Below, one piece after another: positions 27,021-45,002 of a DNA stretch of 64,000 bases. The number at the start of each line of letters is the position of its first letter. Positions within the stretch are counted from its first letter, which is position 1. Source of the stretch: Gymnodinialimonas phycosphaerae (GTDB lineage Bacteria; Pseudomonadota; Alphaproteobacteria; Rhodobacterales; Rhodobacteraceae); NCBI RefSeq assembly GCF_019195455.1, contig NZ_JAIMBW010000001.1, positions 2,728,001 to 2,792,000 on the forward strand, written 5' to 3'. Made by a program: the position numbers and the translations under genes. The notes beneath the pieces were generated by a model. The model saw nothing but the letters and a program-made list of their open reading frames with translations, was not told the DNA's origin and made no database searches.

Positions 27021-27023
27021 GGC

Positions 27024-28610
27024 TTAAATCCCCTGGTCTTCACGGATCATATCGGCGGCCTTTTCGCCGATCATGATGGTGGGTGCATTGGTGTTGGACG
27101 ACACGACGCGCGGCATGATGGAGGCGTCGGCCACGCGCAGCCCCTCGACCCCGTTGAATGCCAAGCGCGGTGTGACGACCGCGCTGTCGCCCGCCCCCAT
27201 GGCGCAGGTTCCGGCGCAGTGATGCGAGGTCTTGGAATGCTGGCAGATGAAGTTGAAATACTCCTCATCCGTGCGCACATCCGGGCCGGGCAGACGCTCG
27301 GCCTTGATCATGTGAGACAGGGCCTGCTGCCCAAGGATCTGTTGCGTCAGTTTGAGGCCCCGAATGGACATCTCGCGGTCACGCGGATCGGCGCAATAGT
27401 TCGGGTCGATCAACGGCGCTTTCGCCGGGTCGCTGCTGGCCAACCGCACCGATCCGCGTGACCGGGGCCGCAGGTAGCAGGAGTTCAGCGTTACGCCCCC
27501 CTCCGGCATGGAGACGACGCCCGCCTCGATCCCGGTGCCAAGGCCAAGGTGGAATTGCAAATCGGGCGACCGCGCATCGGGGTCGGCGTACCAGAACCCC
27601 CCGGTTTCAAAGAGGCTAGACGCCACAGGGCCCTTTTTAGTCAACAGGTATTTCATGCCCGCCAGCACGCTGAGGTGCGGTTTGGCGAAGCGGTCATAGG
27701 TATGCGGGCCCGAGACTTCTGCAATGCAATAGAGGTCCAGATGATCCTGCAAATTTGCCCCTACCTGCGGCTGATCCAGCACCACGTCGATCCCAAGTTC
27801 TTGTAGATGATCCGCCGGGCCAATCCCCGACAACTGCAACAGGCGCGGCGAGCCGATCGCCCCGCTGCACAGCACCACCTCCCGCTCTGCCGTGATCCGC
27901 GTGCCGTCCAGCATCTCGACACCCACCGCGCGGCCCTGCTCGACCACGATCCGCCGAACATTGGCGCGCAGCTTCACGGTCAGGTTCTTGCGGCCCCGGT
28001 TTGGGTGCAGGAACGCCATCGCCGACGACGACCGACGCGCGTTCTTTTGTGTCAACTGATAGTAGGCCGCGCCTTCCTGCACCTCTCCTGTCACATCCTC
28101 GTTGAAGGGAATGCCAAGGGCCTTTGCCGCCTCGAAATACGCCTCGCAGATCGGCAACGGGGCGGCAGGTTTCGACACGCCAAGGGGGCCGTCCTGGCCG
28201 TGGTAGCGACCTGCGTAGGTGTCGTTGCCTTCGGACTTGCGGAAGTAGGGGAGAACATCCTCATAGCTCCACCCTTCACACCCTAATTGCCGCCATTCGT
28301 CGTAATCCAGCGGGTGGCCGCGCGTGTAGATCTGCGCGTTGATGGCAGAGCCGCCGCCGATGACCTTGGCCTGCGTGTAGGTGAAAACCTTGCCCTGCAT
28401 GTGGGTTTGCGGCGTCGTGCTCCAACCCCAGGACGCGATGCCCTTGGTCATTTTCGCAAAGCCTGCGGGCAGGTGGAAGAACGGGTGGCGGTCGGAGCCG
28501 CCGGCCTCCAGCAAGCACACTCGCACGTCAGGGTTCTCGGACAGGCGCGAGGCAATGACGGACCCTGCGCTGCCACCGCCGATGATGATGAAATCGTAAC
28601 CCTCAGCCAT
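27024..28610 (-). CDS. GMC oxidoreductase (choline dehydrogenase-like)
   Basis: A 528-residue FAD-dependent alcohol dehydrogenase. The FAD-binding N terminus is FIIIGGGSAGSVIASRL with the ribose-binding glutamate in CLLEAGGSD. GMC signature segments KVIGGGSAINAQIYTRG and GAIGSPRLLQLSGIGP follow, and the C-terminal active site is TSHHCAGTCAMG with SSNTNAPTIMIGEKAA. No signal peptide is present. The family oxidises primary alcohols of choline, glycols or similar; in this operon the substrate may be a polyol or alkyl glycoside. Confidence 0.93.
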   Translation of the reverse strand: MAEGYDFIIIGGGSAGSVIASRLSENPDVRVCLLEAGGSDRHPFFHLPAGFAKMTKGIASWGWSTTPQTHMQGKVFTYTQAKVIGGGSAINAQIYTRGHPLDYDEWRQLGCEGWSYEDVLPYFRKSEGNDTYAGRYHGQDGPLGVSKPAAPLPICEAYFEAAKALGIPFNEDVTGEVQEGAAYYQLTQKNARRSSSAMAFLHPNRGRKNLTVKLRANVRRIVVEQGRAVGVEMLDGTRITAEREVVLCSGAIGSPRLLQLSGIGPADHLQELGIDVVLDQPQVGANLQDHLDLYCIAEVSGPHTYDRFAKPHLSVLAGMKYLLTKKGPVASSLFETGGFWYADPDARSPDLQFHLGLGTGIEAGVVSMPEGGVTLNSCYLRPRSRGSVRLASSDPAKAPLIDPNYCADPRDREMSIRGLKLTQQILGQQALSHMIKAERLPGPDVRTDEEYFNFICQHSKTSHHCAGTCAMGAGDSAVVTPRLAFNGVEGLRVADASIMPRVVSSNTNAPTIMIGEKAADMIREDQGI

Positions 28611-28619
28611 GGGAATGCC

Positions 28620-29330
28620 TCAAAATGTCTGGATGGACAGGCCGCCATCCACGGGGATTTGCGCGCCGGTGGCGAAGGCGAAATCCCCGCGCGCCAAGGG
28701 CACGACGACGTCGGCAATATCGCGCGGCGTGCCCCAGCGGCCAGCGGGGACGGTATCGGGGATCGTGCTGTCATAGCGGTCGGCCACGGGGGCCGTCATC
28801 GGTGATTGGATGATGCCGGGGCGGATATCGAAGACGCCGATGTTGTGCGGCGCGAGGCGTTCGGCGAAGGCGCGTGCGGCCATGGCGGTGGCGGTTTTGG
28901 AGATGCAGTATTCCACCCGGTTGGGGCTGAGGACTGACGCGTTGACCGAGGTGATGAAGGTGATGGAGCGGTAGGGCGCGGCGGGCAATTCCAGCATCCG
29001 CCGTGCCACCTGCTGCGCCAGAAAGACCGCGCCTCGGGTGTTGACGGAAAGGCAGCGGTCAAAGCTTTCCGGCGTCATATCAAGCACATCACCCCGCGCC
29101 ATTGCCCCCACGCCCGCGTTGGAGATCAACGTCGTGATGGGCCCCACGGCGTCCAGAAGCGCCGGAATGGCGTCAATGTGGCGCACGTCGTGCTGGTGGT
29201 AACTGGCCTCGAACGGCATCTGAGCCGTGGCCGCATCAGAGGCCACCGCAATTTCCCATCCCGCCGCGTGCAGGGCCGTCGCAATGCCAAGGCCAATGCC
29301 CTGCTGGCCCCCTGTAATAAGCGCTTTCAT
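28620..29330 (-). CDS. SDR-family NAD(P)-dependent oxidoreductase
   Basis: A 236-residue classical short-chain dehydrogenase. It has the cofactor loop TGGQQGIGLGIA, ISNAGVG, the catalytic serine in FITSVNAS and tyrosine/lysine in YCISK, and the PGIIQSPMT motif after the active site. It overlaps the upstream GMC gene by ATGA and is followed by a second GMC gene after 9 bases. It probably interconverts a ketone and alcohol in the same pathway. Confidence 0.93.
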   Translation of the reverse strand: MKALITGGQQGIGLGIATALHAAGWEIAVASDAATAQMPFEASYHQHDVRHIDAIPALLDAVGPITTLISNAGVGAMARGDVLDMTPESFDRCLSVNTRGAVFLAQQVARRMLELPAAPYRSITFITSVNASVLSPNRVEYCISKTATAMAARAFAERLAPHNIGVFDIRPGIIQSPMTAPVADRYDSTIPDTVPAGRWGTPRDIADVVVPLARGDFAFATGAQIPVDGGLSIQTF

Positions 29331-30796
29331 GGAGTTTCCTTCAGATGATCTGCCTGCCGCAAAGCCAGTGCGGCGATGGTCAGGGACGGGTTGACTGCCG
29401 CCGATGTCGGCAGCAGCGAAGCGTCGCAGATGTAGAGGTTCGGATGGTCATGGGTGCGCCCCATCGGATCGCATACGGAGGTCGCGGGATCGTCCCCGAT
29501 CCGCGCCGTTCCGCATTGGTGCGAGGGCGTGCGACGGTCGAAGGCCTTGGACAGAACCACCGGGAAGCCCACCCGTTTCAACGTCGCCTTCAGCTTCGCA
29601 ACCAGCGCCAGATGCGCCTTCCAGTTGGAGCGTTTCCAATCCAACACGATGTCATCCCCGCGCACGCTTACGCGGCTGTCGGGGTTCGGCAGATCCTCGG
29701 ACATGGCGTAGAAATCGATCGCACGCCCCGCGATCAGCCGGGCCAGCGGCATCGGCAGCCCGGTTTGCGCCGCAAGAATAGGCGCAGACACGCGCCCCAG
29801 CAGTTGCACGTTGCCCAAGGGCGCGCCGTCCGGGCCGCCCGTCAGGTACCAATCGTTGATCTGAAGCGTCTTTTGGTAGACCGACCGATTGCGCCGCCCG
29901 CTCAGGCCCAGAACCGCGCTTGCGTTGTGGTTCATGAAATTGCGCCCCACCTGATCGGACCGGTTCGCCAGCCCGGTCGGATGCGCCTCATCGGCCGAGC
30001 GTAGCAGCAACGCCGCCGTGCGGACCGCCCCCGCCGCCAGCACGATGCGCGGTGCAGTCAGGCGCCCGGCAGAGGTCAGCAGCCCCGTGACCCTGTCGCC
30101 TTCAACCTCGATCCTGCGGACTTCGACCCCGGTGCGCAGGATCACGTTCGGGTCTTCCAAGGCCGTGACCAGCGCCGCGCTTTCGGCGTCCAGCTTGCCG
30201 CCGTTCGTGTCGGGGAAAGCGTCCCACGGGGTCTGCGCACGGCTCAACCATCGCTCCAGGTCGACCGCCAAGGGCAAGGGCGACGGGTGCAGGCCCGCCT
30301 TCGTAAGGCGCACCGCAAGGTCCGAGATCTCTGGCTCGTGGGGGACCGGCGGGAACCCGTAGCCGTCATGGGGCGGGTCGGTGGGGTCCATCCCGGATTG
30401 TCCGCGCACACGAAACAGCTGTTCAGCGCGGGCGTAGAACGGAGCCAGTGCGTCGTAGGAGACCGGCCATCCGGGCGTGGTGCCCCCGATATGTTGGATC
30501 GGGGCGAAATCGGCCTCGCGATAGCGCAACATGACAGCGCCATAGAACTTGGAATTGCCGCCCACGCAGGCGTAATTGCCCGGACTGAAGCGCGCACCAT
30601 CCGGCGTCAGCCAAGTCTCATCGGGGCGATAGTGGCCGTCGCGGAAAATCGCGACAGGGTCGCGCGCTTCCGGGCTGTCGTGCAAAAGCTGCCCGCGCTC
30701 CAGGATCAGTACGCGCAAGCCCGACCCTGCCAATCCGGCGGCCAATGTCGCCCCGCCCATGCCGGAGCCTACGATGATGATATCCGCGTCGGTCAT
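29327..30796 (-). CDS. GMC/pyranose-oxidase-like FAD oxidoreductase
   Basis: A 489-residue FAD enzyme that heads the operon. It begins with IIIVGSGMGGATLAAGLAG and has YACVGGNSKFYGAVMLRYR as the GMC signature. The active-site pair is a histidine in SHQCGTARIG and an asparagine in SAAVNPSLTIAAL, the His/Asn arrangement of pyranose 2-oxidase and glucoside 3-dehydrogenase enzymes. A keto-sugar-forming dehydrogenase is therefore plausible. I start at ATG 30796, which has GAGAGGG just upstream; the longer frame runs through the promoter. Confidence 0.9.
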   Translation of the reverse strand: MTDADIIIVGSGMGGATLAAGLAGSGLRVLILERGQLLHDSPEARDPVAIFRDGHYRPDETWLTPDGARFSPGNYACVGGNSKFYGAVMLRYREADFAPIQHIGGTTPGWPVSYDALAPFYARAEQLFRVRGQSGMDPTDPPHDGYGFPPVPHEPEISDLAVRLTKAGLHPSPLPLAVDLERWLSRAQTPWDAFPDTNGGKLDAESAALVTALEDPNVILRTGVEVRRIEVEGDRVTGLLTSAGRLTAPRIVLAAGAVRTAALLLRSADEAHPTGLANRSDQVGRNFMNHNASAVLGLSGRRNRSVYQKTLQINDWYLTGGPDGAPLGNVQLLGRVSAPILAAQTGLPMPLARLIAGRAIDFYAMSEDLPNPDSRVSVRGDDIVLDWKRSNWKAHLALVAKLKATLKRVGFPVVLSKAFDRRTPSHQCGTARIGDDPATSVCDPMGRTHDHPNLYICDASLLPTSAAVNPSLTIAALALRQADHLKETP

Positions 30797-30810: not shown

Positions 30811-30840
30811 TACATTTGGAACGTTCCAATTCCAAGTCAA
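30811..30840 (-). promoter_or_regulatory. promoter with LacI-type operator for the GMC-SDR-DUF993-LacI operon
   Basis: On the minus strand a TTGACT -35 box (30835-30840) is followed 9 bases later by AACGTT, the centre of the perfect 14-base palindrome TTGGAACGTTCCAA (30816-30829). The palindrome fills the spacer towards a weak -10 (AATGTA), a position that would block RNA polymerase. A central CG is typical of LacI-family operators. The same layout recurs at 35225-35250 and 41338-41363. Confidence 0.8.
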
Positions 30841-30925
30841 AAAGCACGCGGGCCGCTCGGGGCGCGGTCACACCAGTAGTTACGAAAAAACTACAGGTTT
30901 ACTACAGGACGACGACACGGATTTT

Positions 30926-32041
30926 TCAGGCAATCCGGGCTTGGGACGTGGGGTCGAACAGAACCGCCTTGTCCATGTTCACCGCGAATTCGAACGGTTG
31001 GTTCGGGTGCACGTCGGCATCGGCACGCATCCGCGCGATGCAATCCTTTCCCGACAGCGTGGTGCTGACGAAGGTGTCCGCCCCAGCAGGTTCCGTTATA
31101 CTGACCGTGTTGGTCATCATCTGGATGTTGCGCGCGTTTCGGTCAGCGCCCTCGGGGTCTGTGATCGCCTCGGGCCGGACGCCAAGCATCACCTTTTTGT
31201 CGACGTAAGCTCGGTAGGCCTCGGGCGCATCCTCGATGCGAAGCGCCACATCCGCCCCCTCGGCCCCGGTGAACTGCGCATGCAGCGCGCCGTTCATTTC
31301 CACCAGTGTGGCGTCGAGCACATTCATTGCGGGCGAGCCCATGAAGGTCGCTACAAACAGGTTGGCAGGGTTGTCGTAGATCTCTTTGGGGGTGCCAAGC
31401 TGCTGGACGTAGCCGTCATACATGACAGCGATCCGGGTCGAAAGCGTCATCGCCTCGATCTGGTCGTGGGTCACGTAAACGATTGTTGTGCCAAGCTTTT
31501 GGTGCAGCTTCTTGATCTCGGTCCGCATGTCGACACGCAGTTTCGCGTCAAGGTTGGACAGCGGTTCATCGAAGAGGAAGACATCCGGGTCCCGCACCAA
31601 GGCGCGGCCCATGGCTACGCGCTGGCGTTGTCCGCCGGAAAGCTGACCGGGCTTGCGCTTCAGCAGGTCTTCGATCTGCAACAGTTTGGCGACATCGGCC
31701 ATGGCCTTGTCGCGTTCAGGTTTCGGCGTGCCCTGCATCTCCAGCCCGAAAGTGATATTCTGGCCCACGGTCATGTTCGGGTAGAGGGCGTAGCTTTGGA
31801 ACACCATCGCGATGTTGCGCTTGGAGGGCGTGACGTCATTGACGACCCGGTCCTTGATGGCGATCTCTCCGCTGGTGATCCCCTCCAACCCCGCGATCAT
31901 GTTGAGTAGCGTGGACTTGCCACAGCCCGAGGGGCCAACGAGAACAAGGAATTCCCCCTCTTGCACCTGGATGTCGACCTTATGCAGAACCTCCACCGCG
32001 CCGTAGGATTTGGTGACGTTGTTGATGTCTAGAAAACCCAT
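30926..32041 (-). CDS. sugar ABC transporter ATP-binding protein (MalK/GtsD type)
   Basis: A 371-residue ATPase of the CUT1 carbohydrate importer class. It has Walker [17 protein letters not shown], the Q-loop, signature [15 protein letters not shown], Walker [17 protein letters not shown] and switch histidine ([13 protein letters not shown]), then a C-terminal TOBE/regulatory domain of about 130 residues. It is the last gene of a leftward four-gene cassette (binding protein, two permeases, ATPase) and is 5 bases downstream of the second permease. Confidence 0.95.
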
Positions 32042-32046
32042 GGGAC

Positions 32047-32928
32047 TTATCCTTTGACCGAGCCAGCCATCAGGCCACGGACGAAATATCGACCGGCCAC
32101 GATGTAGACGAGAAGGGTTGGAGCGGCAGCCATGATGGCGCCTGCAAAGTGGACGTTATACTCGCGCACGCCGGTGCTTGAGTTGACGAGGTTGTTGAGC
32201 GCTACCGTCATCGGTGCCGCCCCACCTGACGCGAAGGACGCGCCGAAGAGGAAGTCGTTCCAGATGTTGGTGAACTGCCAGATGCAGCAGACGGCGATGA
32301 TCGGGCCGGAGCTTGGCAACATGATGCGCCAGAAGATCTGGAAGAAGCCCGCCCCATCGATCTGGGCCGCGCGCACCAGTTCGGTCGGGAAAGCGGCATA
32401 GTAGTTGCGGAAGTAGAGCGTGGAGAAGCCGATACCGTAGACCACGTGGACCAGGATCAACCCGTAGGTGGTGCCCGAGATGTTCAGGATACCCAGGATC
32501 CGTGCCATCGGGATCAGGACGATCTGGAAGGGGATGAAGCAGGAAAACAGCAAGAGCCCGAAGATCCACGTCGCGCCCCGGAAGTGCCATTTGGTCAGCA
32601 CGTAGCCGTTCAGCGCCCCCGCGATGGTCGAGATCGCGACCGCAGGCACCGCCATGGCGATGGAGTTGATGAAATAGGGGCGCAGGCCCGTCGGCTCTAC
32701 CCCGATCTGTGCCGTGGACCAGGCCGATAGCCATGGCTCGATCGTCCATTGCTGCGGCAGGGCGATCATGTTGCCGCCGGTGATTTCCTCCAGCGGTTTG
32801 AGGGAGTTCACCAGCATGATCCCGAAGGGCAGCAGGTAGAACAGTGCAAACAGGAGCAGCACGAGGTAGATGAAAGTGCGCGCGACCTTGGAGGTCTTGA
32901 TGGCGCTGTCGGCAGAAGCGATGGCCAT
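32047..32928 (-). CDS. carbohydrate ABC transporter permease (MalG/GtsC type)
   Basis: A 293-residue inner-membrane permease with six helices and the EAA-loop [20 protein letters not shown] that docks the ATPase. ATG at 32928 overlaps the upstream permease stop by one base (TAATG), which sets the start; the frame upstream of this is not coding. It forms the translocation pore with the permease at 32928-33833 for a glucose-type substrate. Confidence 0.95.
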
Positions 32929-33833
32929 TATTTCTTCTCCCTCAACTCGGCATAGAGGTAAGGCACCATGATCGCCGCAATCGTCATCAACATGATGACG
33001 GCGGACGACGCGCCGATGCCCATCTGGTTGCGGGTGAAGGTGTAGGAGTACATGAACGTGGCAGGCAGCGCCGTGGCGTTGCCGGGGCCGCCGCCGGTCA
33101 GCGCGATGACCAAGTCGTAGGACTTGATGGCAAGGTGGCTGAGGATCACGAAGGCGCTCAGGAACGCGGGCCGAAGTTGCGGCAGGATGATCCGGCGGTA
33201 CATCTGGAATGTCGACGCGCCGTCCATCTGGGCAGCTTTCAGGATTTCGTTGTCTATGCCCCGCAGACCGGCAAGGAACATCGCCATGACGAAGCCCGAG
33301 GATTGCCAGACGGCGGCAATGACGATGGTGTAAATCGCCATCTCGCGGTCCTTGATCCAATTAAACTCGAAACTGGCCCAGCCCCACAGGTGCATCGTGT
33401 TCTCGATGCCAATGGCAGGGTCGAGAAACCATTTCCACGCCGTGCCCGTCACGATGAATGACAGCGCCATGGGGTAGAGGAAGATTGGGCGCAGCAGCCC
33501 TTCGCCACGAATCTTCTGGTCCAGCAAGATCGCGAGCATCAAGCCGATGATCGTGCAAATGATGATGTAAAGTGAGGCGAAGATCGCCAGGTTGGTGACG
33601 GCCGTGTCCCATTCGCGGATGCGGAACAGACGCTCGTAATTCTGGAAGCCCACAAGATCGAAGCTCGGCAACATGCGCGAGCCGGTGAAGCTGAGGTAGA
33701 CCGTGAAGGCGATGAAGCCGTAGACGAAAATCACCATCACCGCGAAGGACGGCGCGAGCACGATCTTTGGCAGCCAGTTCTGAAGGCGTGTGCGGAAGTC
33801 CGCGCCCCCTAACATGGGATCGGTAGCGGCCAT
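32928..33833 (-). CDS. carbohydrate ABC transporter permease (MalF/GtsB type)
   Basis: A 301-residue permease with six predicted helices and the EAA-like loop KAAQMDGASTFQMYRRIILPQ. The sequence SYDLVIALTGGGPGNAT before the last helices is typical of CUT1 MalF-type subunits. ATG at 33833 has AAGGAGAGG just upstream; in-frame ATGs further up lie within an intergenic hairpin. It pairs with the permease at 32047-32928. Confidence 0.95.
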   Translation of the reverse strand: MAATDPMLGGADFRTRLQNWLPKIVLAPSFAVMVIFVYGFIAFTVYLSFTGSRMLPSFDLVGFQNYERLFRIREWDTAVTNLAIFASLYIIICTIIGLMLAILLDQKIRGEGLLRPIFLYPMALSFIVTGTAWKWFLDPAIGIENTMHLWGWASFEFNWIKDREMAIYTIVIAAVWQSSGFVMAMFLAGLRGIDNEILKAAQMDGASTFQMYRRIILPQLRPAFLSAFVILSHLAIKSYDLVIALTGGGPGNATALPATFMYSYTFTRNQMGIGASSAVIMLMTIAAIMVPYLYAELREKK

Positions 33834-33875
33834 GGGGCCTCTCCTTGCGGTCTGGACGGGATGGTTGAGAAGGGT

Positions 33876-33902
33876 GGACCGGCCCACGATCGGGGCCGGT
33901 CC
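33876..33902 (-). other. intergenic hairpin between binding protein and permease genes
   Basis: A perfect 10-bp stem (GGACCGGCCC against GGGCCGGTCC) with a seven-base loop lies just after the binding-protein stop. No T-run follows. In ABC operons such structures typically protect the binding-protein mRNA or attenuate readthrough, giving excess binding protein over membrane subunits. Confidence 0.75.
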
Positions 33903-33911
33903 GGGACCTAC

Positions 33912-35174
33912 TTATTGAGCAAGCTCGACAGCGGTGACCATCTCGGCCGCGGCGGTTTCCGCATCGTACTCACCGTTGAAATGCGCGGTGATCACGTCGT
34001 ACATCGCGTTCTGGACGGACGGAGGGTTGGCGTGGCCGTGGGCCATGGAGCCGAACAGCGTGCCCGCTTCACCGGCGGCTGCCAGATCGGCCATGGCCGC
34101 CTGACCACAGGCATCGAACGCAGAGGCGTCGATGTCAGTGCGCGCAGGGGCCGAGCCTTTGACCACGTTGAACGCGATCTGGAACTCAGGCGACATCACG
34201 GCAGAGGCCATGGCGACTTGCGAGGCCTGATCGCCTTCGTCCGCGACGTTGAACATCGCGAACTGGTCCGAGTTGAACGTCACGGTGCCCTCGGTCCCGG
34301 GTACGCGGAAGCACTGGAATTCCTCGCCGGCTGTGAGGCCCGCGTTGACGAATTCACCCTTCGCCCAGTCACCCATGATCTGGAACAACGCTTCGCCGTT
34401 GATCACCATGGCCGAGGCCAGGTTCCAGTCGCGGCCCGAGAAGTTGTCGTCCACGAAACCGCGTAGAGTGGCCATCCGCTCGAACGCCTCGACCATCTGG
34501 GAACCGCCAAGTGCGTCCGGGTCCAACTCGACCATCGCGGCCTGATAGAACTCGGGCCCGCCGACGCCCATCACCATCGAATCGAAGATGGTAGCGTCCT
34601 GCCAGGCCTGACCTCCGTGCGCCAGCGCGGTGTAGCCCGCGTCCGCAGCGGTCTGCATTGCGGCAACAAAGTCTTCCCAGGTGCCGGGCTGTTCGATGCC
34701 AAGCTCTTCCATCAGCGCGGTGTTGGCCCAAACCCAGTTGGTGGAGTGGACGTTGACCGGCGCGGCAACCCAGTTGCCTTCGTACGTAGAGAACCGCTGA
34801 AGCGCCTCGGGCACAACTTCGTTCCAGTTCTGCTCTTCTGCCAAGGCGTTTAGATCAGCCAGCGCACCTTCGGCGGCCCAGTCCTGGATCGAGAAGCCAA
34901 GCATCTGCACGGCGGTGGGCGGGTCGCCTGCGGTCACACGCGCGCGCAGAACGGTCATGGCGTCAGAGCCACCACCACCGGCGACGGGCATGTCGGTCCA
35001 ACCGATGCCACCACCGGCCAGATCTTCGCGCAGAACGTTCAGGGCAGCCGCTTCGCCGCCGGACGTCCACCAGTGCAGAACCTCCACATCCTGCGCCTGA
35101 GCGGCGGACGTGATCGCCGTCGTGGACAACGCCAGTACGGCCGCGCCCGTGGACAGTTTTTTCATCAAGGTCAT
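33912..35174 (-). CDS. glucose/mannose-type ABC transporter substrate-binding protein
   Basis: A 420-residue periplasmic binding protein with a clear signal peptide (MKKLSTGAAVLALSTTAITS then AAQAQD cleavage). The mature N terminus VEVLHWWTSGGEAAALNVL, then MPVAGGGGSDAMTVLRARV, closely follows the GtsA glucose-binding proteins of Pseudomonas. ATG at 35174 has GGGAGGAAATCG upstream. It is the first gene of the leftward cassette and is divergent from a LacI-type gene, with AACGTT-centred sites in the shared intergenic region. Confidence 0.93.
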   Translation of the reverse strand: MTLMKKLSTGAAVLALSTTAITSAAQAQDVEVLHWWTSGGEAAALNVLREDLAGGGIGWTDMPVAGGGGSDAMTVLRARVTAGDPPTAVQMLGFSIQDWAAEGALADLNALAEEQNWNEVVPEALQRFSTYEGNWVAAPVNVHSTNWVWANTALMEELGIEQPGTWEDFVAAMQTAADAGYTALAHGGQAWQDATIFDSMVMGVGGPEFYQAAMVELDPDALGGSQMVEAFERMATLRGFVDDNFSGRDWNLASAMVINGEALFQIMGDWAKGEFVNAGLTAGEEFQCFRVPGTEGTVTFNSDQFAMFNVADEGDQASQVAMASAVMSPEFQIAFNVVKGSAPARTDIDASAFDACGQAAMADLAAAGEAGTLFGSMAHGHANPPSVQNAMYDVITAHFNGEYDAETAAAEMVTAVELAQ

Positions 35175-35220
35175 TCGATTTCCTCCCAATTGACCAATCC
35201 CCTTACCGGGGCTGCATGAA

Positions 35221-35250
35221 TTAAAACGTTATAAATCCCAGTCAAGTCAA
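35221..35250 (-). promoter_or_regulatory. promoter and LacI-type operator of the glucose-type importer
   Basis: On the minus strand TTGACT (35240-35245, with an overlapping second copy to 35250) is followed 9 bases later by AACGTT (35225-35230). This is the centre of TTATAACGTTTTAA, palindromic except for one pair. The spacing from the -35 box equals that in the GMC operon promoter at 30811-30840. Confidence 0.7.
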
Positions 35251-35350
35251 CCGGAATTTACGCTTTTCGTTTGCAAGTTTCGCCGCAAAGCAGCAAGTTT
35301 TGCGGGGTTTTTTCTGCAATGCAGAATGCAAGGCAAGATGAAACACGCTA

Positions 35351-35381
35351 TTGAAACGTTTGAAATCCTGCGCAATATACT
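35351..35381 (+). promoter_or_regulatory. promoter and operator of the divergent LacI gene
   Basis: TTGAAACGTTTGAA (35351-35364, palindromic apart from one pair) overlaps a -35-like TTGAAA, with TATACT at 35376-35381 as a possible -10. This would let the LacI-type protein repress its own gene together with the divergent importer. Confidence 0.6.
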
Positions 35382-35412
35382 TGGCGACACAACCCAAAGG
35401 CGATGCCCTCCC

Positions 35413-36471
35413 ATGAGCAGCGATCCCGGTCTGACACAGACAGGCGACAAACCGACGCTGCGCTCTTTGGCGGAGGCGACCGGGTACTCTGTGGCCACGA
35501 TCAGTCGCGCCTTGGCCGATGATCCGCGAATCGCGGCCAAGACCCGCGCGACCGTGGCGCGTGCTGCCGAAGCGGCGGGCTACGTGCCGGACCGCGCCGC
35601 GCGCCGCTTGCGCACCGGGCGCACCCAAGTGGTGACGCTTCTGCTTAATACGGAACATGAATTTCTGGGTTTCACCCATGAATTCCTGTCCGGCATCACC
35701 GAGGCCCTGCGCGGCACCGGCTATTCCGTCAATGTTGTACCCGATCACGTGGGGGAAGATCGGTTGGAACCGGTCCGCAACATCCTGCGCAACCAACTGG
35801 CCGATGGCATCCTCTTTACCCGAACCGAGGCGTTCGACCCGCGTGTCCGCCTGCTGTTGGAAGCCGATTTTCCCTTCGTCAGCCATGGCCGCACTGAATT
35901 CACCACGCCCCATCCCTTCGTGGATTTCGATAACGAGGCCTTCGCGCGCCGTGCCGTGGAACGCCTTGTCGCCAAGGGCCGCAAACGTCTGTCCCTGATC
36001 CTGCCCGAGGATCGTTTCACCTTCACCCAACACCTGCGCTACGGCTTCCTCAGCGCCGTGCGCGAGGCAGGGGTGGACTATGAGATCGTCGAAGGTGTCA
36101 CGCTCGACAGCTCGTCGAGCGATATTGCACGCGCCACGCGAGAAAGCCGCCTGTCTGATACCCCGCCTGACGGCTACGTCTGCGTCGGAGAGGTCACGGC
36201 GCTGGTCACGCTTTCGGCGTTGTCCGACAGCGGCGCCGTTCTTGGCCGCGACGCCGACATCTTCGCCAAACGCGCCTCGCCGATCTTCGACAACATCCGC
36301 CCCCGCATCGACACGGTCTACGAAGACCTGCGCGGGACTGGGCACAAGATGGCGGAAATGCTTCTGCGCCGTATGGCCGGAGAGCCCTCCGAAGAGCTGA
36401 CGCATCTGCTGCAGCCGGATTTCGAGCAACTCGGTCACGACAAACCCTGCGATGACGCGACCCAAGGCTGA
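35413..36471 (+). CDS. LacI-family transcriptional regulator
   Basis: A 352-residue LacI-type regulator, similar in layout to AglR-like regulators of sugar uptake. The helix-turn-helix is LRSLAEATGYSVATISRALA, followed by the hinge (PDRAARRLRTGRTQ) and a sugar-binding domain. The recognition residues after the glycine-tyrosine-serine are V-A as in GalR, which binds half-sites close to GAAACG; this agrees with TTGAAACGTTTGAA in its own promoter. It is divergent from the glucose-type importer. Its last 37 bases overlap the convergent aldehyde dehydrogenase gene. Confidence 0.92.
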   Translation: MSSDPGLTQTGDKPTLRSLAEATGYSVATISRALADDPRIAAKTRATVARAAEAAGYVPDRAARRLRTGRTQVVTLLLNTEHEFLGFTHEFLSGITEALRGTGYSVNVVPDHVGEDRLEPVRNILRNQLADGILFTRTEAFDPRVRLLLEADFPFVSHGRTEFTTPHPFVDFDNEAFARRAVERLVAKGRKRLSLILPEDRFTFTQHLRYGFLSAVREAGVDYEIVEGVTLDSSSSDIARATRESRLSDTPPDGYVCVGEVTALVTLSALSDSGAVLGRDADIFAKRASPIFDNIRPRIDTVYEDLRGTGHKMAEMLLRRMAGEPSEELTHLLQPDFEQLGHDKPCDDATQG

Positions 36472-37970
36472 CGGGTGTCGCCGATGCGCATCTGCACGGT
36501 CTTCACCTCCAGGAATTCCTCGAGCCCGTAGCGTCCAAGCTCTCGCCCCTGCCCGCTTTCCTTGAAGCCGCCGAAAGGCATTTCCGGGTAGCCGTCCATC
36601 CAGGTATTTGTCCAAACCGTCCCGGCATGCACCCTCCGCGCGAAGCTGAGGCAGGTGGACATGTCCTTGGACCACACCCCCGCAGAAAGGCCGTAAGTCG
36701 CGCCATTGCACAGGCGTAACGCCTCATCGAGGGTCTTGAAGGTCAGCACGGCCAGCACCGGCCCGAAGACTTCATCACACGCGATGGGCATGTCGGGGCG
36801 CAGGTCTGTCACGACCGTGGGCTGATAGAATTGTGGCCCCACGCCGTCTACGCCAAAGGCCGCGCCACCGATCGCCACCCGCGCGCCATCGGCAACGGCA
36901 GCCTGAACGTAGCCATCGATTTTCGCCATATGCTCGGGCGAGATGATCGCGCCGACTTGCGTGGCCGGGTCCAGGGGATCCCCAAAGGGCACCCGCCGCG
37001 ACAGGGCCACGACCTTTTCGGTCAGCGCCTCGGCCACGTCCTCATGCACGATGATGCGCGAGCCTGAATTGCAGCATTCGCCCGCGTTGAAGTACACGCC
37101 AAAGGTGATCGCATCGGCGGCTTGATCCAGATCCGCATCGGGGAAAATGACCTGAGGGTTCTTGCCGCCCAACTCTAGCGAGACCTTTTTCAGCGTCCCG
37201 CTTGCCGCCGCTGAAATCCGCTTGCCCACACCGGTGGAGCCGGTGAAGCTGATCATATCGACGCGGCTGTCCGTGGACAGCACCTCCCCCACCGGGTCGC
37301 CAAATCCGAGCACGATATTGAGCACACCCGCAGGCAGGCCCGCTTCAATCAGCAACTCGCCCAGAATGCAGGTCGTGGACGGCGTCAGTTCCGATGGCTT
37401 GACCACCGCAGTGCAGCCCGCCGCCAGGGCGAAGGGCAGTTTTTGGGACACGATCAGGAACGGGAAGTTCCAGGGCGTGATCATCGACACGACGCCGATG
37501 GGCTCTTTCAAGACGACCCCCAACATGTCCGGCCCAAGGCTGTTGTGGCTGTCGCCGTGAATCATCCGCGCAAGACTGGCCGCATAACGCCAAAGGTCCG
37601 CTGCGCCGCCGATCTCGGCCTTGGCCTGGCTGATGGGTTTACCGGATTCGAGCGTTTCCAGCAGGGCAATCCGGTCCAGATCCCGCTCAATCAACTCGGC
37701 CACTTTCAGCAGGATCGCCGCCCGTGACGCACCACTTGAGAACGCCCAATCGCCTTGGTCAAACGCAGCGCGCGCCGCTGCAATCGCGGCATGGGCATCG
37801 GCCGCGCCGCCTTTGGCGGACGTGCTGACGTGGGTGCCATGGGCGGGCGAATGTCGCTTTGACACCGAGCCATCGGCACTGTCGCACCACGCGCCTGCAA
37901 TCAGGTGCCGCCCCGTGAACGGCGCGGGGGTCGCAACGCCGGCGGAGGGAATAATCGTCATCTCGGTCAT
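36435..37970 (-). CDS. aldehyde dehydrogenase (NAD(P)+-dependent)
   Basis: A 511-residue aldehyde dehydrogenase. It shows the cofactor segment ITPWNFPFLI, FTGSTGVGK, the catalytic glutamate in LELGGKNPQVIF, the nucleophile in NAGECCNSGSRI, and the late EVFGPVLAVLTF and PFGGFKESGQGRELG motifs. It is the last gene of the leftward group Gfo/Idh - CoA-transferase - hydratase - ALDH and starts 3 bases after the hydratase stop. It probably oxidises an aldehyde to the acid that the CoA-transferase then activates. Confidence 0.94.
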   Translation of the reverse strand: MTEMTIIPSAGVATPAPFTGRHLIAGAWCDSADGSVSKRHSPAHGTHVSTSAKGGAADAHAAIAAARAAFDQGDWAFSSGASRAAILLKVAELIERDLDRIALLETLESGKPISQAKAEIGGAADLWRYAASLARMIHGDSHNSLGPDMLGVVLKEPIGVVSMITPWNFPFLIVSQKLPFALAAGCTAVVKPSELTPSTTCILGELLIEAGLPAGVLNIVLGFGDPVGEVLSTDSRVDMISFTGSTGVGKRISAAASGTLKKVSLELGGKNPQVIFPDADLDQAADAITFGVYFNAGECCNSGSRIIVHEDVAEALTEKVVALSRRVPFGDPLDPATQVGAIISPEHMAKIDGYVQAAVADGARVAIGGAAFGVDGVGPQFYQPTVVTDLRPDMPIACDEVFGPVLAVLTFKTLDEALRLCNGATYGLSAGVWSKDMSTCLSFARRVHAGTVWTNTWMDGYPEMPFGGFKESGQGRELGRYGLEEFLEVKTVQMRIGDTRQPWVASSQGLS

Positions 37971-37973
37971 GGG

Positions 37974-38738
37974 CTAAGTCCCTCGGAAATCGGGTGAGCG
38001 TTTCTCGGCGAAGGCGGACACGCCCTCGGCCTTGTCCTCGGTCGCGCCGACCATGCCGCCGCCCAAGGCTTCGATCATCGCATTGCGATCTTCGCCGACC
38101 GCCGCGTGGATCTGGTATTTCGCAACCTCATGGGCGCGGGGAGAGGCCTTCATCGCCTCTTTCGCGATGGCGACTGCCGTGGCAAGCGGGTTGTCTGCCA
38201 CCTCGGCAAACCCCAGCGCCTGCGCCTTTTCCGCCGAGACCCGGCGACCAAACAGCGCCATATCCTTGACGACCGCTTCCGGCAGCAAACGCAACAGCCG
38301 TGTGTTGCCGCCCCAGCCTGGCACAATGCCGACCTGGGCTTCAGGCAAGGCCAACGTCGCGCCCGGAGCCATGATCCGCAGGTCCGCGCAGGCGGCCAGT
38401 TCGAGCCCGCCGCCAAAGGCGTGGGCTTGCAAGACCGCAATCGTGGGCTTGGACAGGCCTGCCAGACGGTCCAGGATCCTGTGGCCTTCACGCACCCAAT
38501 GGCGCGCGAAATCGGTAGGAGAAAGCCCGCCCCATCCGCTAATATCCGCGCCCGCACAAAAGGCGCGCTCCCCCTCTGCGGTGATCAGAACGATGCGCAC
38601 CAGCGGATCCCGTTCGAGGGTCGCGCAGGCATCTTCCAACTGCCCCAGCATCTGCACCGTCAACGCGTTCAGCTTGGACGGGTTATCCAGCGTGATCCGA
38701 GCCATGGCCCCGTCGATCGCAAGGTGAATGGCGCTCAT
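37974..38738 (-). CDS. enoyl-CoA hydratase/isomerase family protein
   Basis: A 254-residue crotonase-fold protein. The oxyanion-hole segments are ERAFCAGADISGWGG and HAFGGGLELAACADLRI. At the catalytic-acid position PEAQVGIVPGWGG carries the glutamine/glycine pattern seen in several isomerases, so hydratase activity is not certain. ATG at 38738 overlaps the CoA-transferase stop by ATGA. The link with the CoA-transferase points to a CoA-bound intermediate. Confidence 0.92.
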   Translation of the reverse strand: MSAIHLAIDGAMARITLDNPSKLNALTVQMLGQLEDACATLERDPLVRIVLITAEGERAFCAGADISGWGGLSPTDFARHWVREGHRILDRLAGLSKPTIAVLQAHAFGGGLELAACADLRIMAPGATLALPEAQVGIVPGWGGNTRLLRLLPEAVVKDMALFGRRVSAEKAQALGFAEVADNPLATAVAIAKEAMKASPRAHEVAKYQIHAAVGEDRNAMIEALGGGMVGATEDKAEGVSAFAEKRSPDFRGT

Positions 38739-40306
38739 ACCGGCAATCCCATTGGTTTGTCGCACAACAAGCTCTGCGGCAGGGTGATGGCGTCTTCGGC
38801 CACGCTGACGCGGCCTTCGCTGGCGGCGACGATGTCTTTGGCCGGGTCGATACCCGGCATGATCTCGGTGGCCACAAGACCTTGATCTTGCAGGCGCATG
38901 ACACAACGCTCGGTGATATAAAGCACCTCTGCCCCCCGCGCCCGGGCGCGGCGGCCCGCAAAGGTCACGTGTTCCACGGCCTCGACCATCTTGGTGAACT
39001 TGCCGGGCTTGGCGATGTTCAGGCCGCTATCGGTGATTTCAAACTGCGCACCCGCCTCGAAGAATCCGCTGAAAACGATCTTCCTTGCATGGGCCGTGAT
39101 ATCCACGAAGCCGCCGCAGCCCGCCGTGAGGTAGGGCTTTTTGCCAAGCTTGGAGACGTTGACGTTGCCGTCTATGTCGACCTCCATGAACGACAGGAAG
39201 CTTACGTCGAACCCGCCGCCTTGGAAGTAGGCGAATTGTTGGGGAGAGGGCACAAAGGCATCCGCGTTGGAGGCACAGCCGAAGGCGAAGCCGGTCAGGG
39301 GCATGCCGCCCACAGCCCCCTGCTCAATCGCCCATGTCACCGCGTCGTGGACGCCTTCTTCCAGCAGAATGCGCGGCACCATCGCCGAGATGCCGAAGCC
39401 GAGGTTAGCGGTCATCCCGCGGCGCAGTTCCATCGCGGCGCGGCGCGCGATGATCTTCTCCACTCCGTGTTCTGCCAAGGCAAAGCTGCTCCATGGGCGC
39501 ATCACTTCGCCGGAAATTGCGGGGTCATAGGACGTTTCCGTGGTCTGCTTCTGATCAGGGTCTACCACGATCAGGTCCACCAGATGCCCCGGCACATGCA
39601 CGTCATGGGGCCGCAGAGACCCCGCCGCCGTCACCCGTTTGACCTGCGCAATCACCAGCCCGCCATGGTTTCGCGTGGCGATCGCCTGATCGAGCCCCCC
39701 CAGATACGCGCCCTCGTGCTCATAGGTCAGGTTGCCGTTTTCGTCCGCGGTGGTGGCGCGGATGATGGCAACGTCAGGCACGATATTGGGGAAGTGAAGC
39801 CAGGTGTCGCCCGCGAAGTCCACGCGGCTCACGATGGGGGCGGCCTCGGCGCGGGCGTTCATCGCGCAGCCTTCGCGAATCGGGTCCACGAAGGTTTCCA
39901 GCCCTACTTGGGTCAAAACGCCCGGGCGGCGCGCGGCGACGTCGCGGTGCATGTCAAAGAGAATGCCGGAGGGCACGTTATAGGCGGCGACGCGGTCATC
40001 CACGACCATCTGCCAGATTGCGGGCATCGGCAGGGACGACGGGCCCGAGGGGTAGGAGCCGCCGATGATCCGGGATAGAAGACCGTCCTTGGCGATGTGA
40101 TCCACGCCTTTAACGCCATACATGTCACCCGCCGCAATGGGGTGGATCGTGGTCAGGTTCCGGGGCGCGCCTTCCAAGTCGAACCGCGCGCCGATGGCCT
40201 GCAATACAGCGTCCGGGCAGCCCAAGGCGCTGGAGGAGGATACTGTAACGACAGCGCCATCCTTGATGCGTTTGGCCGCCTCTTGCCCGGATACGATCTT
40301 CGACAT
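38735..40306 (-). CDS. acyl-CoA:carboxylate CoA-transferase (YdiF-like)
   Basis: A 523-residue fused alpha-beta family I CoA-transferase. The N-terminal half has KDGAVVTVSSSSALGCPDA and the C-terminal half the catalytic-glutamate motif WAIEQGAVGGMPLTG. Similar proteins (E. coli YdiF, acetate or propionate CoA-transferases) activate short acids. I use ATG at 40306, one base after the Gfo/Idh stop (TGAGATG). It lies between the Gfo/Idh dehydrogenase and the crotonase-like gene. Confidence 0.92.
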   Translation of the reverse strand: MSKIVSGQEAAKRIKDGAVVTVSSSSALGCPDAVLQAIGARFDLEGAPRNLTTIHPIAAGDMYGVKGVDHIAKDGLLSRIIGGSYPSGPSSLPMPAIWQMVVDDRVAAYNVPSGILFDMHRDVAARRPGVLTQVGLETFVDPIREGCAMNARAEAAPIVSRVDFAGDTWLHFPNIVPDVAIIRATTADENGNLTYEHEGAYLGGLDQAIATRNHGGLVIAQVKRVTAAGSLRPHDVHVPGHLVDLIVVDPDQKQTTETSYDPAISGEVMRPWSSFALAEHGVEKIIARRAAMELRRGMTANLGFGISAMVPRILLEEGVHDAVTWAIEQGAVGGMPLTGFAFGCASNADAFVPSPQQFAYFQGGGFDVSFLSFMEVDIDGNVNVSKLGKKPYLTAGCGGFVDITAHARKIVFSGFFEAGAQFEITDSGLNIAKPGKFTKMVEAVEHVTFAGRRARARGAEVLYITERCVMRLQDQGLVATEIMPGIDPAKDIVAASEGRVSVAEDAITLPQSLLCDKPMGLPV

Positions 40307-40307
40307 C

Positions 40308-41300
40308 TCAGACCCCGCCGTAGTCAACGGCGGTGCGCGTGCCGGTTTCCGCCGCCTTCGCGACAGCCGCCGCTACCGCAAGCGATTTGACCCCATCCAC
40401 ACCGTCCGCCGCAGGGCGGCCTTCGCCCGCGCAGGCCTTCGAGAACAGATCAACAGCCCGGTCGTAGAGGCCGTGGGTGGCATATTCGACAGCCTGTTCA
40501 CCACCCTCGAACCGCAGCGTGACGTCGCCCACAGGCGCTTGGGTCATCACGCCCCGTGCGATGATCGATCCTTCGGTCCCGTGCACCTCGATCCCCGATC
40601 CGGCGAAGCGGTGCGTAAAGCTTTCGTGGGTGTGCACCATCGCGCCAGAGGGCATGGACCAGATGGACATCGCGCTGTCCTCCACCCCCTGCCCCATGCC
40701 GCTGGCCGTCTTCATGGCGACCACATCGACAGGGTCCTCGCCCAGATGGAATCGCACGGTATCGGCGTCGTGCACGGTGATATCGGGGATCACCCCGCCG
40801 CCCGCGTCCGGGTTGTCGATACGCCAGCCTTGTAGGTGCGGTGGCAGATGAACAGCATGGAAAACGCGGACCGAGAGGACGGTGCCGATGCGGCCCGTCG
40901 CGATCAATTCGCGGATCGCCAGATGGCTGCCCGCATTGCGCAGGTGGTGGTTGGTGCCGAAGGTCACATTCGCGGCCTGCGCCGCCTTCACCATGGTCAC
41001 GGCATCCGCAACGCTCATCGCCAAAGGCTTTTCGCACAGAACGTGTTTGCCCGCGGCAATCGCCGCCATGGCCTGAGGCAGGTGCTTTTCGTTGGTGGTA
41101 GAGATGTAGACGGCATCCACCCCGTCCATCGCGGCGTCCAGATCGGTGACGCCTTTGGGGATGTCATGCTTGGCCGCGTAGCTTACCGCGCGGTCAGGGC
41201 TAGAGCTGAGGACGGTGGCGATTTCCCCGCCCGAGGCGCGGATCGCACCGATCATGTGTTCCGCCGCAATCGTGCTTGCCCCGATCAGTCCCCAACGCAT
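40308..41300 (-). CDS. Gfo/Idh/MocA family oxidoreductase
   Basis: A 330-residue NAD(P)-dependent dehydrogenase. It has an N-terminal Rossmann fold (WGLIGASTIAAEHMIGAI), the EKP motif in HVLCEKPLAMSVADAV with the conserved lysine, and the C-terminal substrate domain with DITVHDADTVRFHLGE. The family acts on sugars, inositols and glucosides. It is the first gene of the operon and carries two TTGGAACGTTCC operator-like sites upstream, so it probably belongs to the LacI (24843) regulon. Confidence 0.94.
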   Translation of the reverse strand: MRWGLIGASTIAAEHMIGAIRASGGEIATVLSSSPDRAVSYAAKHDIPKGVTDLDAAMDGVDAVYISTTNEKHLPQAMAAIAAGKHVLCEKPLAMSVADAVTMVKAAQAANVTFGTNHHLRNAGSHLAIRELIATGRIGTVLSVRVFHAVHLPPHLQGWRIDNPDAGGGVIPDITVHDADTVRFHLGEDPVDVVAMKTASGMGQGVEDSAMSIWSMPSGAMVHTHESFTHRFAGSGIEVHGTEGSIIARGVMTQAPVGDVTLRFEGGEQAVEYATHGLYDRAVDLFSKACAGEGRPAADGVDGVKSLAVAAAVAKAAETGTRTAVDYGGV

Positions 41301-41312
41301 CGCTCACCTCTT

Positions 41313-41363
41313 TTGGAACGTTCCTATAGGGAGATAATTGGAACGTTCCACATGCGGAGTCAA
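41313..41363 (-). promoter_or_regulatory. promoter with two LacI-type operators for the Gfo/Idh-CoA-transferase operon
   Basis: On the minus strand TTGACT (41358-41363) is followed 10 bases later by AACGTT inside TGGAACGTTCCA (41339-41350), with AATTAT as a possible -10. A second copy, GGAACGTTCC (41315-41324), sits 25 bases further downstream, just before the GAGGTGAG ribosome site. The centres are 25 bases apart. The first copy has the same relation to the -35 box as at 30811-30840. Confidence 0.8.
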
Positions 41364-41369
41364 GCCTCA

Positions 41370-42443
41370 TCAGGATGCGGCGCAGCTTATGCCCGTTTCA
41401 ACATCGAACAGATGCGCGGAAGAAGCGTCGATGGCGACCTGAAGCGTGGTCTTCGCCTTGATGTCCACCTGACCCGGCAATTGCATCGCGAAATCGTCCG
41501 AGCCTGCAACGGCCCCATAAACGAAGGTCTCTGTGCCAAGCTGCTCCACCGCGCGAACCTGCAAAGGCACACCGGCGCCATCGGCGGGGTTTGCATGACC
41601 CGGGCGCACGCCCAGTTCGACCGCTTGGCCCGGGCGGGTGGTGAAACGGCGAACGTCCAGCGCGACCTCAGCCCCGCCTTCGGAGACGAAAACGCCGCCC
41701 TCGCCCATCACGCCGCGGATGAAGTTCATCTTGGGCGAGCCTATGAACCCCGCCACAAAGCGGTTGGCGGGGGCGTTGAACAGCTCCAGCGGGGGGCCGA
41801 ATTGTTCCAGCCGTCCCGCACGCAGAACGGCGATCTTGTCGGCCATGGTCATGGCTTCGACCTGGTCGTGGGTGACGTAGACCATCGTATTGCCAAGGCG
41901 TTGATGCAGTTCAGATATCTCGCCGCGTGTGGCGACGCGCAGTTCCGCGTCAAGGTTCGACAATGGCTCGTCAAACAAGAACACGCGCGGTTCTCGCACC
42001 ACGGCGCGGCCGATGGCGACGCGCTGGCGCTGCCCGCCCGACAGCTGGCCGGGGCGACGGTCGAGGTAATCGTCGATTTGCAACATGCGCGCGGCCTCGG
42101 TCACGCGCGTGTCGATCTCGGCCCGGGCCATGCCAATGTTTTCCAGCCCGAAGGACAGGTTATTGCGCACCGACATATGCGGGTACAGGGCGTAGGATTG
42201 GAAAACCATCGCCAGCCCACGCTTCGAGGCGGGGACGTGGTTCAGCACCTCGTCGTCAATTGCGATGTCACCGCTGCTGATCTGCTCCAACCCCGCGATC
42301 ATCCGCAAAAGCGTGGACTTGCCGCAGCCCGAGGGGCCGACGAACACGCAGAACTCGCCGGATTTGACCGTGATATCGACGCCGTGGATCACCTCCACTT
42401 CGCCGTAGGCTTTCTTGACGTTTCTGAGTTCGAGTAAAGCCAT
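41370..42443 (-). CDS. carbohydrate ABC transporter ATP-binding protein (UgpC/MalK type)
   Basis: A 357-residue ATPase with Walker [17 protein letters not shown], signature [15 protein letters not shown], Walker [16 protein letters not shown] and switch histidine VYVTHDQVEAMTM, followed by the TOBE/regulatory domain. It is the last gene of a second leftward carbohydrate importer (binding protein at 45003, permeases at 43920 and 42487). The sequence differs enough from the ATPase at 30926 to be an older paralogue. Confidence 0.95.
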   Translation of the reverse strand: MALLELRNVKKAYGEVEVIHGVDITVKSGEFCVFVGPSGCGKSTLLRMIAGLEQISSGDIAIDDEVLNHVPASKRGLAMVFQSYALYPHMSVRNNLSFGLENIGMARAEIDTRVTEAARMLQIDDYLDRRPGQLSGGQRQRVAIGRAVVREPRVFLFDEPLSNLDAELRVATRGEISELHQRLGNTMVYVTHDQVEAMTMADKIAVLRAGRLEQFGPPLELFNAPANRFVAGFIGSPKMNFIRGVMGEGGVFVSEGGAEVALDVRRFTTRPGQAVELGVRPGHANPADGAGVPLQVRAVEQLGTETFVYGAVAGSDDFAMQLPGQVDIKAKTTLQVAIDASSAHLFDVETGISCAAS

Positions 42444-42486
42444 TGGACTACCTTCTATGCGCTATCGCTTCGCTACTTGAGCGCGG

Positions 42487-43923
42487 TTACTTCATCCCCG
42501 TATTTGCGATGCCGGTGGTGATGTACTTTTGCAGAAACACGAAGACGAGCGTCGTGGGGATCAACGACACGACCGTCATCGCAAGGCGGTAGTGTTCCTG
42601 GCTGATATGCTCGCCGCGGAATTCCAGCAGACACAGCTGGATCGTGTAGGCCTCGGTATTCGTGGCGATGGCGACCATGGGGATGATCAGGTCGTTCCAG
42701 CGCCAGATGACGGACAGGATGCCAAGGGCCGCGATGGCGGGCAGCGCCAGCGGCAGGACGATGCGCCAATACACCTTCCATTCGGACGCGCTGTCCATGC
42801 GCGCGGCCTCCAGCAATTCGTCGGGGATCGTCAGCATGTACTGGCGCAGCAGGAAGACACCGGCGGGCGTTGCCGCGCCCGGGATGATGACCCCCCAGAT
42901 ACTGCCAGAAAGCCCCGTCGCGTTGATTGCCTTGAACACGCCCACCAACGTGATCGTGGCTGGCACCATCAGCGTGGCAAGGATCACCACAAGGAACAGC
43001 GTCTGGCCTTTGAAGGTGTATTTCGACAGCGCAAACGCAGCCATGGAGTTGATCAGCAGCGTCATCAGCGTGGCGATGACGGTTACAAGCACGCTATTGG
43101 TGATGCAGGTCGCGAAATCAACGTTGACGCCGTAGGCGGTGCCGGTCAGCGGCTCGGAATAATTGCCCCAGGAGGGGGCTATGGTGCGGTTGGCTGTGAC
43201 CGTTTCCGCAGGCAGCCGCACGACTTGGCTTGCATCACCACGGACGGCACGGCCCGGAAAGAACTCGGACGAGGCATTGGGGTTGGGGATCGCCCATTCC
43301 ATCACCTCGCCTGTTTCGGGGTGCGGTGCGGTCACGAGGACTTGTGTCACGATGCGGTTGGGCTGATAGGGTTCGACGCCAAGGTATTCGAGGATCAGGC
43401 GCCGCTGATCTTCGTTTAGCATCTCGACGACGGCGTCGAGGTCAAACGCCTCCCGCGATTGCGGCGTCAGCGCGGCGTAACGGTTGAGCCAATCGGGCAA
43501 CCCCTCCTCGGCAATAAGCCTCCTCGCAGCGTTACTGACTTGCCCGAGGTGGGAGCGGAGGGCGTAGAGGGCGTTGCCCTCGAACCCGTTAAGGTAGGCG
43601 GTGACGTCGCGGCCCTGTTGCTCGGCCTCGGACAGATCGGACCAGTTCAGCACCCACAGGGGCAGATCGGCGATGACGAAGATCTCTCGGCCATCGGGGC
43701 CGTTGACGGTGGCGCGGGCAACGCGGTCGAAATCGCCGGGCAGAAGGGACAGGTCTTGGGATTCAATCTGAAACTGCGATTTGATCGAATTCAGGCCAAG
43801 CCAAATGACGGGCACGAGAATGATCAGGAAACCGAAGATCAGGTAGGCGTAGGACAGCCAATCCGTCCAGGTGAGCCGCCCGCGGCCTTGCGTGCGCGAC
43901 AGGAAATCCCACACCATGCTCAT
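42487..43923 (-). CDS. carbohydrate ABC transporter permease with large extracytoplasmic insertion
   Basis: A MalG-type permease of 478 residues, about 200 more than usual. Helix 1 is at residues ~25-45. Residues ~58-245 form a hydrophilic, probably periplasmic, domain (starting LLPGDFDRVARATVNG, with PLWVLNWSDLSEAEQQG and PNPNASSEFFPGR). The canonical permease core then resumes, with the EAA loop EAARMDSASEWKVYWRIVLP. ATG at 43923 overlaps the upstream permease stop. The inserted domain could contact the binding protein or select substrate. Confidence 0.9.
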   Translation of the reverse strand: MSMVWDFLSRTQGRGRLTWTDWLSYAYLIFGFLIILVPVIWLGLNSIKSQFQIESQDLSLLPGDFDRVARATVNGPDGREIFVIADLPLWVLNWSDLSEAEQQGRDVTAYLNGFEGNALYALRSHLGQVSNAARRLIAEEGLPDWLNRYAALTPQSREAFDLDAVVEMLNEDQRRLILEYLGVEPYQPNRIVTQVLVTAPHPETGEVMEWAIPNPNASSEFFPGRAVRGDASQVVRLPAETVTANRTIAPSWGNYSEPLTGTAYGVNVDFATCITNSVLVTVIATLMTLLINSMAAFALSKYTFKGQTLFLVVILATLMVPATITLVGVFKAINATGLSGSIWGVIIPGAATPAGVFLLRQYMLTIPDELLEAARMDSASEWKVYWRIVLPLALPAIAALGILSVIWRWNDLIIPMVAIATNTEAYTIQLCLLEFRGEHISQEHYRLAMTVVSLIPTTLVFVFLQKYITTGIANTGMK

Positions 43924-44981: not shown

Positions 44982-45002
44982 CGTCCTGGCCCCTGCCCGA
45001 CC

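Follow-up and report, generated by a model that had tools for sequence, protein, structure and literature searches.

Results

The window, that is, the whole 64,000-nucleotide stretch of Gymnodinialimonas phycosphaerae DNA that was analysed, carries an island with two regulator genes of the LacI family, and the following parts of the island are considered here:

24843–25847, minus strand: lacI1, encoding the LacI-family repressor LacI1 (334 aa; Pfam LacI and Peripla_BP_3), predicted to bind operator A
25857–30796, minus strand: the closely packed GMC2, SDR, GMC1 and DUF993 genes, upstream of lacI1
30926–35174, minus strand: genes of an ABC importer (solute-binding protein, two permeases, ATPase)
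35413–36471, plus strand: lacI2, encoding the divergent LacI-family repressor LacI2 (352 aa), predicted to bind operator B
36435–41300, minus strand: Gfo/Idh, CoA-transferase, enoyl-CoA-hydratase-type and aldehyde dehydrogenase genes

All these genes lie on the minus strand except lacI2, which is oppositely oriented between the aldehyde dehydrogenase gene and the importer. The GMC2-SDR-GMC1-DUF993-lacI1 run is followed by a glycerate-kinase-type gene. The nearest solved chain to the Gfo/Idh protein (40308–41300) is 1,5-anhydro-D-fructose reductase (E 1.5e-113), a match that hints at a possible anhydro-sugar substrate; the DUF993 protein matches one uncharacterised solved chain. Both LacI1 and LacI2 matched PF00356 together with PF13377 above the cut-off, i.e., an N-terminal LacI helix-turn-helix and a sugar-binding-protein-like domain. 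The residues of this helix typically set the outer operator bases in LacI-type regulators. An SKSTVS helix was found in all 77 of the 79 LacI1 rows in which the pattern could be read, and the helix of LacI2 (24 rows) reads V or I, A or T, and then TVSRA or TISRA.

The first-pass annotation had proposed that three promoters of the island share one TTGACT–AACGTT layout with a gap of 9 or 10 bases. The strings themselves are exact and lie on the minus strand where it had placed them: TTGACT-N9-AACGTT at 30820–30840 (GMC promoter region) and at 35225–35245 (importer promoter region), and TTGACT-N10-AACGTT at 41342–41363 (Gfo/Idh promoter region). The palindromes are present as well, together with the extra AACGTT sites (35355–35360 and 41317–41322). 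None of 100 dinucleotide-shuffled versions of the window contained the composite string, and the genome-wide scan that the annotation had called for found TTGACT-N8-11-AACGTT three times in the own genome (4.32 Mb), each time within this island, with two matches to a reversed control pattern. AACGTT alone showed no clear enrichment (13 occurrences in the window vs. a mean of 8.8 in shuffles, with 10 of 100 shuffles reaching 13).

The window does contain the triple, yet the composite string is no family-wide signal. Among 295 genomes of the family, 54 contain it, at 79 places in all, and LacI1 is present in 9 of these 54 vs. 40 of the 295 overall (Fisher p 0.29). Outside the own genome there are 76 such places, 29 of which were kept as loci; 24 of these loci had no match to any island protein, and the remaining 5 had weak matches only (26–39% identity). 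The spacing is not kept either: at Gfo/Idh promoters the gap of 9 or 10 recurs in 2 of 24 relatives only, and at the importer all 25 loci have the conserved TTGAC at 14 bases from AACGTT. Composite spacing was rejected as a regulatory signal, and the single programme into which the annotation had united the three promoters is not supported. A search by TTGACT-N9-AACGTT would mislead.

Operator A, TTGGAACGWTCCAA, occurs once before GMC2 and twice before Gfo/Idh:

30816–30829: operator A at the GMC2 promoter, TTGGAACGTTCCAA; matrix score 32.9, the best in the window; footprint in relatives
41338–41351: operator A, first of the two Gfo/Idh sites, 25 bp away from its partner; matrix score 27.9
41313–41326: operator A, second site before Gfo/Idh, with the GGAACGTTCC core; matrix score 26.4

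We looked for footprints in the best 80 of 288 LacI1-relative loci and in 25 Gfo/Idh matches from 24 of the 295 genomes. Upstream of GMC2, the site reads TTGGAACGATCCAA or TTGGAACGTTCCAA in LacI2-bearing relatives, with a CCAG end in some, and TTGGAACGGTCCAA, TTGGAAGGTTCCAA, TTGGAATGTTCCAA and TTGGAATCTTCCAA in four relatives that are more distant. The outer TTGGA/TCCA(A) bases of these sites are kept while the core drifts to AACGAT, AACGGT, AAGGTT, AATGTT or AATCTT. The Gfo/Idh promoters carry operator A in 23 of 24 relatives (at least one site in 24 of 25 rows with the window); an A site is lacking at the second Gfo/Idh copy of G238. Tandem A sites were found at 20 of 25 Gfo/Idh promoters, window included, at a spacing of 13 bp (1 promoter), 20–25 bp (16) or 32–34 bp (3). 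The operators are even palindromes with a central CG upstream of operons, with the exception of L041, L047 and L057, in which the central pair of the GMC2 site is not CG. These footprints at orthologous promoters support the earlier proposal that the palindromes are LacI-type operators.

Operator A also tends to occur where LacI1 does. Of the 295 genomes, 30 contain the exact 14-mer WTGGAACGTTCCAW and 40 contain LacI1; 22 carry both, vs. about 4 expected (Fisher p 4.5e-16, kinship ignored). At the one locus checked per motif genome, an island gene lay within 1.5 kb in 16 of the 22 genomes with LacI1, was absent in the other 6, and was found in none of the 8 genomes without LacI1. In the own genome, operator A with up to three mismatches occurs at 125 places vs. 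123 for the control, which is background. Five other exact GGAACGTTCC sites and five two-mismatch 14-mer sites all (10/10) lie inside mechanical ORFs that are 110 codons or longer. For now, a wider LacI1 regulon in this genome was rejected; because the five other exact GGAACGTTCC sites fall inside reading frames, the regulon looks local.

Operator B lies as a pair in the gap between the importer and lacI2, near two copies of TTGACT:

35219–35236: operator B, O1, an 18-mer over the importer promoter; matrix score 33.8
35349–35366: operator B, O2, an 18-mer toward lacI2, 130 bp from O1; matrix score 31.7
35245–35250, minus strand: conserved TTGAC(T), likely the importer −35 box; the distance to AACGTT is 14 bases in all 25 loci
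35240–35245, minus strand: second, non-conserved TTGACT, 9 bases from AACGTT, the copy matched in the first-pass annotation

O1 (TAACGTTTYAAT) was found in 25 of 25 lacI2/importer gaps, window included, and O2 (AAACGTTTC or a near form) in 24 of 25, with none recognised in L036. Their centres are 128–131 bp apart in 24 of 25 loci, in gaps that are themselves about 217 to 243 bp long. The two copies of TTGACT in the window overlap on the minus strand (GGTTGACTTGACTGGG), which yields gaps of both 9 and 14 to AACGTT; the gap of 9 is a coincidence, because a TTGACTTGACT repeat in the window supplies the extra TTGACT. B-type sites are retained at both ends of the gap in the LacI2-importer pairs of G140 and G079, which have no LacI1 hit, and one exact core each is present in G002 and G125.

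Two further elements were noticed in the same gap, namely, a palindrome, TTCTGCAATGCAGAA, at 35312–35326, which recurs in loose form in 14 of 25 loci, and a terminator-like stem with a T run on the plus strand at 35283–35305, from a scan whose total was near the shuffled mean. Upstream of distant LacI2 relatives (L197, L199, L202, L203 and L205) we observed TTGAC-N14-AACGTT with a near-perfect ATTTRTAACGTTATAAAT-like palindrome, pointing to a possible broader class of importer promoters.

When matrices were trained only on sites from relatives (68 A sites and 47 B sites), they split the five sites of the window into three A and two B. The A matrix scored 32.9, 27.9 and 26.4 at the A sites, with 8.5 as the next best in the window, and 6.2–6.3 at the B sites; the B matrix scored 33.8 and 31.7 at the B sites, with 16.4 as the next best, at the GMC2 A site, so some cross-binding is possible. 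Each operator class also occurs in genomes without the regulator of the other class. Taken together, co-occurrence and the relatives-trained matrices argue for two conserved operator classes, each tied to its own regulator gene, and bear out the earlier assignment of GGAACGTTCC to the regulator at 24843 and of AAACGTTT-like sites to that at 35413. A second ABC importer lies upstream of Gfo/Idh (41370–46271), and ahead of its first gene the matrix scan gave nothing above background for either operator class.

We infer from the sequence that the three places are promoters, with TTGACT fitting a −35 box. Two such boxes lie at the catabolic genes:

30835–30840, minus strand: TTGACT, likely the GMC2 −35 box, degenerate in relatives
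41358–41363, minus strand: TTGACT, likely the Gfo/Idh −35 box

A sigma-70 scan listed only the Gfo/Idh promoter among the three, as TTGACT-18-AATTAT, and its total showed no excess (3 in 10.8 kb vs. a shuffle mean of 2.2). TTGAC precedes the first operator core by 4–10 bases at Gfo/Idh promoters in 19 of 25 rows (the window counted as one row). In the window, the operators at GMC2 and at the first Gfo/Idh site follow TTGACT directly, ahead of a plausible −10 box; the GMC2 −35 assignment would imply a leader of only about 8 bases.

To compare gene arrangements, 20 stretches from relatives were fetched. In nine of them (G013, G262, G121, G231, G291, G107, G025, G176 and G082) the genes from Gfo/Idh to LacI1 are codirectional, importer included, with no LacI2 and with a tandem A pair in front (a single site in G291). 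In G067, G010, G098 and G230 the importer is absent from the run. G250, G047 and G034 have LacI2 before the importer and GMC2 without an operator, and G235 has both LacI2 and the GMC2 operator, like the window. In G030, G285 and G182 the stretches end early, and the state of GMC2 or LacI1 is not readable. At least G235, G067, G262 and G025 seem to be the records of L039, L054, L051 and L078, respectively, and count as no extra evidence.

Among 66 of the 80 LacI1-relative loci (14 without a usable GMC2 start were left out), the GMC2 operator is present in 24 of 24 LacI2-bearing loci vs. 2 of 42 others (L026 and L032), 8 of which do not cover the LacI2 position (L026, L066, L070, L072, L074, L077, L086 and L088). 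The rule that LacI2 insertion always comes with a GMC2 operator had to be modified, as G250, G047 and G034 have LacI2 without it. On the regulator tree, in which many branches are unsupported, the operator changes 3 times and LacI2 changes 2 times (79 rows) or 5 times (96 rows); L036 and L051 were left out of both trees. Since independent events are this few, Fisher values overstate the case. The trees fit gain of the operator and LacI2 as well as loss.

Discussion

The island is very probably shared by two local LacI-family repressors, LacI1 acting at the A sites and LacI2 at the B sites, each exerting a repression that would be released by an inducer. LacI1 would bind TTGGAACGWTCCAA, one dimer spanning the −35 to −10 interval of the GMC operon and, judging by the spacing, two dimers sitting adjacent to each other on the Gfo/Idh promoter. 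LacI2 would bind the B pair at two points 130 bp apart, one over the importer promoter and one toward lacI2, and the spacing suggests that it may bridge them. With no inducer, a bound dimer would block RNA polymerase, and an inducer derived from the imported compound would free each repressor. The AACGTT core would be the common centre of LacI-type operators, and TTGACT the −35 box. Because GMC2 and lacI1 belong to one run, with lacI1 on the downstream side, LacI1 should control itself. Binding, repression, bridging and the inducer are what we infer from sequence evidence.

The AACGTT core common to all five sites would also fit one LacI protein, or both, reading all of them as a single programme, and the 16.4 of the GMC2 A site on the B matrix, the third best score in the window, points the same way. 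We consider this very unlikely, as relatives keep the outer TTGGA/TCCAA before GMC2 while the core drifts, the B sites score 6.2–6.3 on the A matrix vs. 26.4–32.9 for the A sites, and either class is found without the other regulator. It is similarly improbable that operator A belongs to some other factor, encoded by a gene that just accompanies the island, or that LacI1 acts there mainly as an activator. The exact 14-mer is missing in 18 of the 40 LacI1 genomes and LacI1 in 8 motif genomes, which speaks for this reading; however, LacI1 genomes bearing Gfo/Idh do carry variant A sites, the 8 motif genomes without LacI1 have no island gene beside the checked site, and the A sites adjoin or follow the −35 box, a usual place for repressors to act.

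Chance resemblance among AT-rich promoter strings can almost certainly be dismissed. Such resemblance is suggested by the spread of the composite over 54 of the 295 family genomes (79 places) and by the coincidental gap of 9 at the importer, but all three composites of the own genome lie within 10.5 kb of 4.3 Mb, and the operators are conserved at orthologous promoters, so that the footprints already contradict it. Two repressors, each with its own operator class, remain our preferred reading.

The system belongs to a well-known kind, that of local LacI-type repressors, with a history that is readable from relatives. Local LacI-family regulons have even palindromes with a central CG close upstream of operons, commonly with autoregulation and with the regulator adjoining the operon, and their published tandem sites peak at 13, 22 and 32 bp (PMC4052901); the window resembles them in palindrome type, position, tandem spacing and the regulator beside the operon. 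A motif identical to operator A was not found in the portions of the main text consulted (PMC4052901). The operator of CebR2 from Streptomyces scabiei, TGGGAACGTTCCCA, is likewise a LacI-type palindrome of 14 bp and has an identical inner GGAACGTTCC, but its outer bases are TGGG...CCCA instead of TTGG...CCAA, and CebR2 belongs to another phylum and other genes (PMC9953190). LacI2 resembles ThuR and AglR in being a divergent LacI regulator with an AAAnCGnTTT-like operator by a sugar importer, a likeness of operator and arrangement, its sites being TTCAAACGTTTCAAT and TTATAACGTTTYAAT vs. natcnAAAnCGnTTTngatt for ThuR (PMC4052901). Literature searches on both regulators, the operator strings, DUF993 and 1,5-anhydro-sugar genes found no paper on these regulators, for which predicted operators are now available.

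Since some relatives have one long run behind A sites and others have LacI2 inserted, the window may show the stepwise break-up of a single LacI1-controlled operon. Tentatively, and with slightly less than even confidence, we suggest that a long Gfo/Idh-to-lacI1 run gained LacI2 with its operator pair ahead of the importer and then, in the Roseicyclus-like line, a new GMC2 promoter with a fresh LacI1 operator; this would result in a two-key control, with uptake under LacI2 and both catabolic ends under LacI1, the substrate perhaps being a 1,5-anhydro-sugar. Relatives exist in each of the three states of the proposed split. Related islands wire the same genes in three ways, as one run, as a run with an inserted repressor and as three promoters, which makes the division of an operon between regulators testable at the bench.
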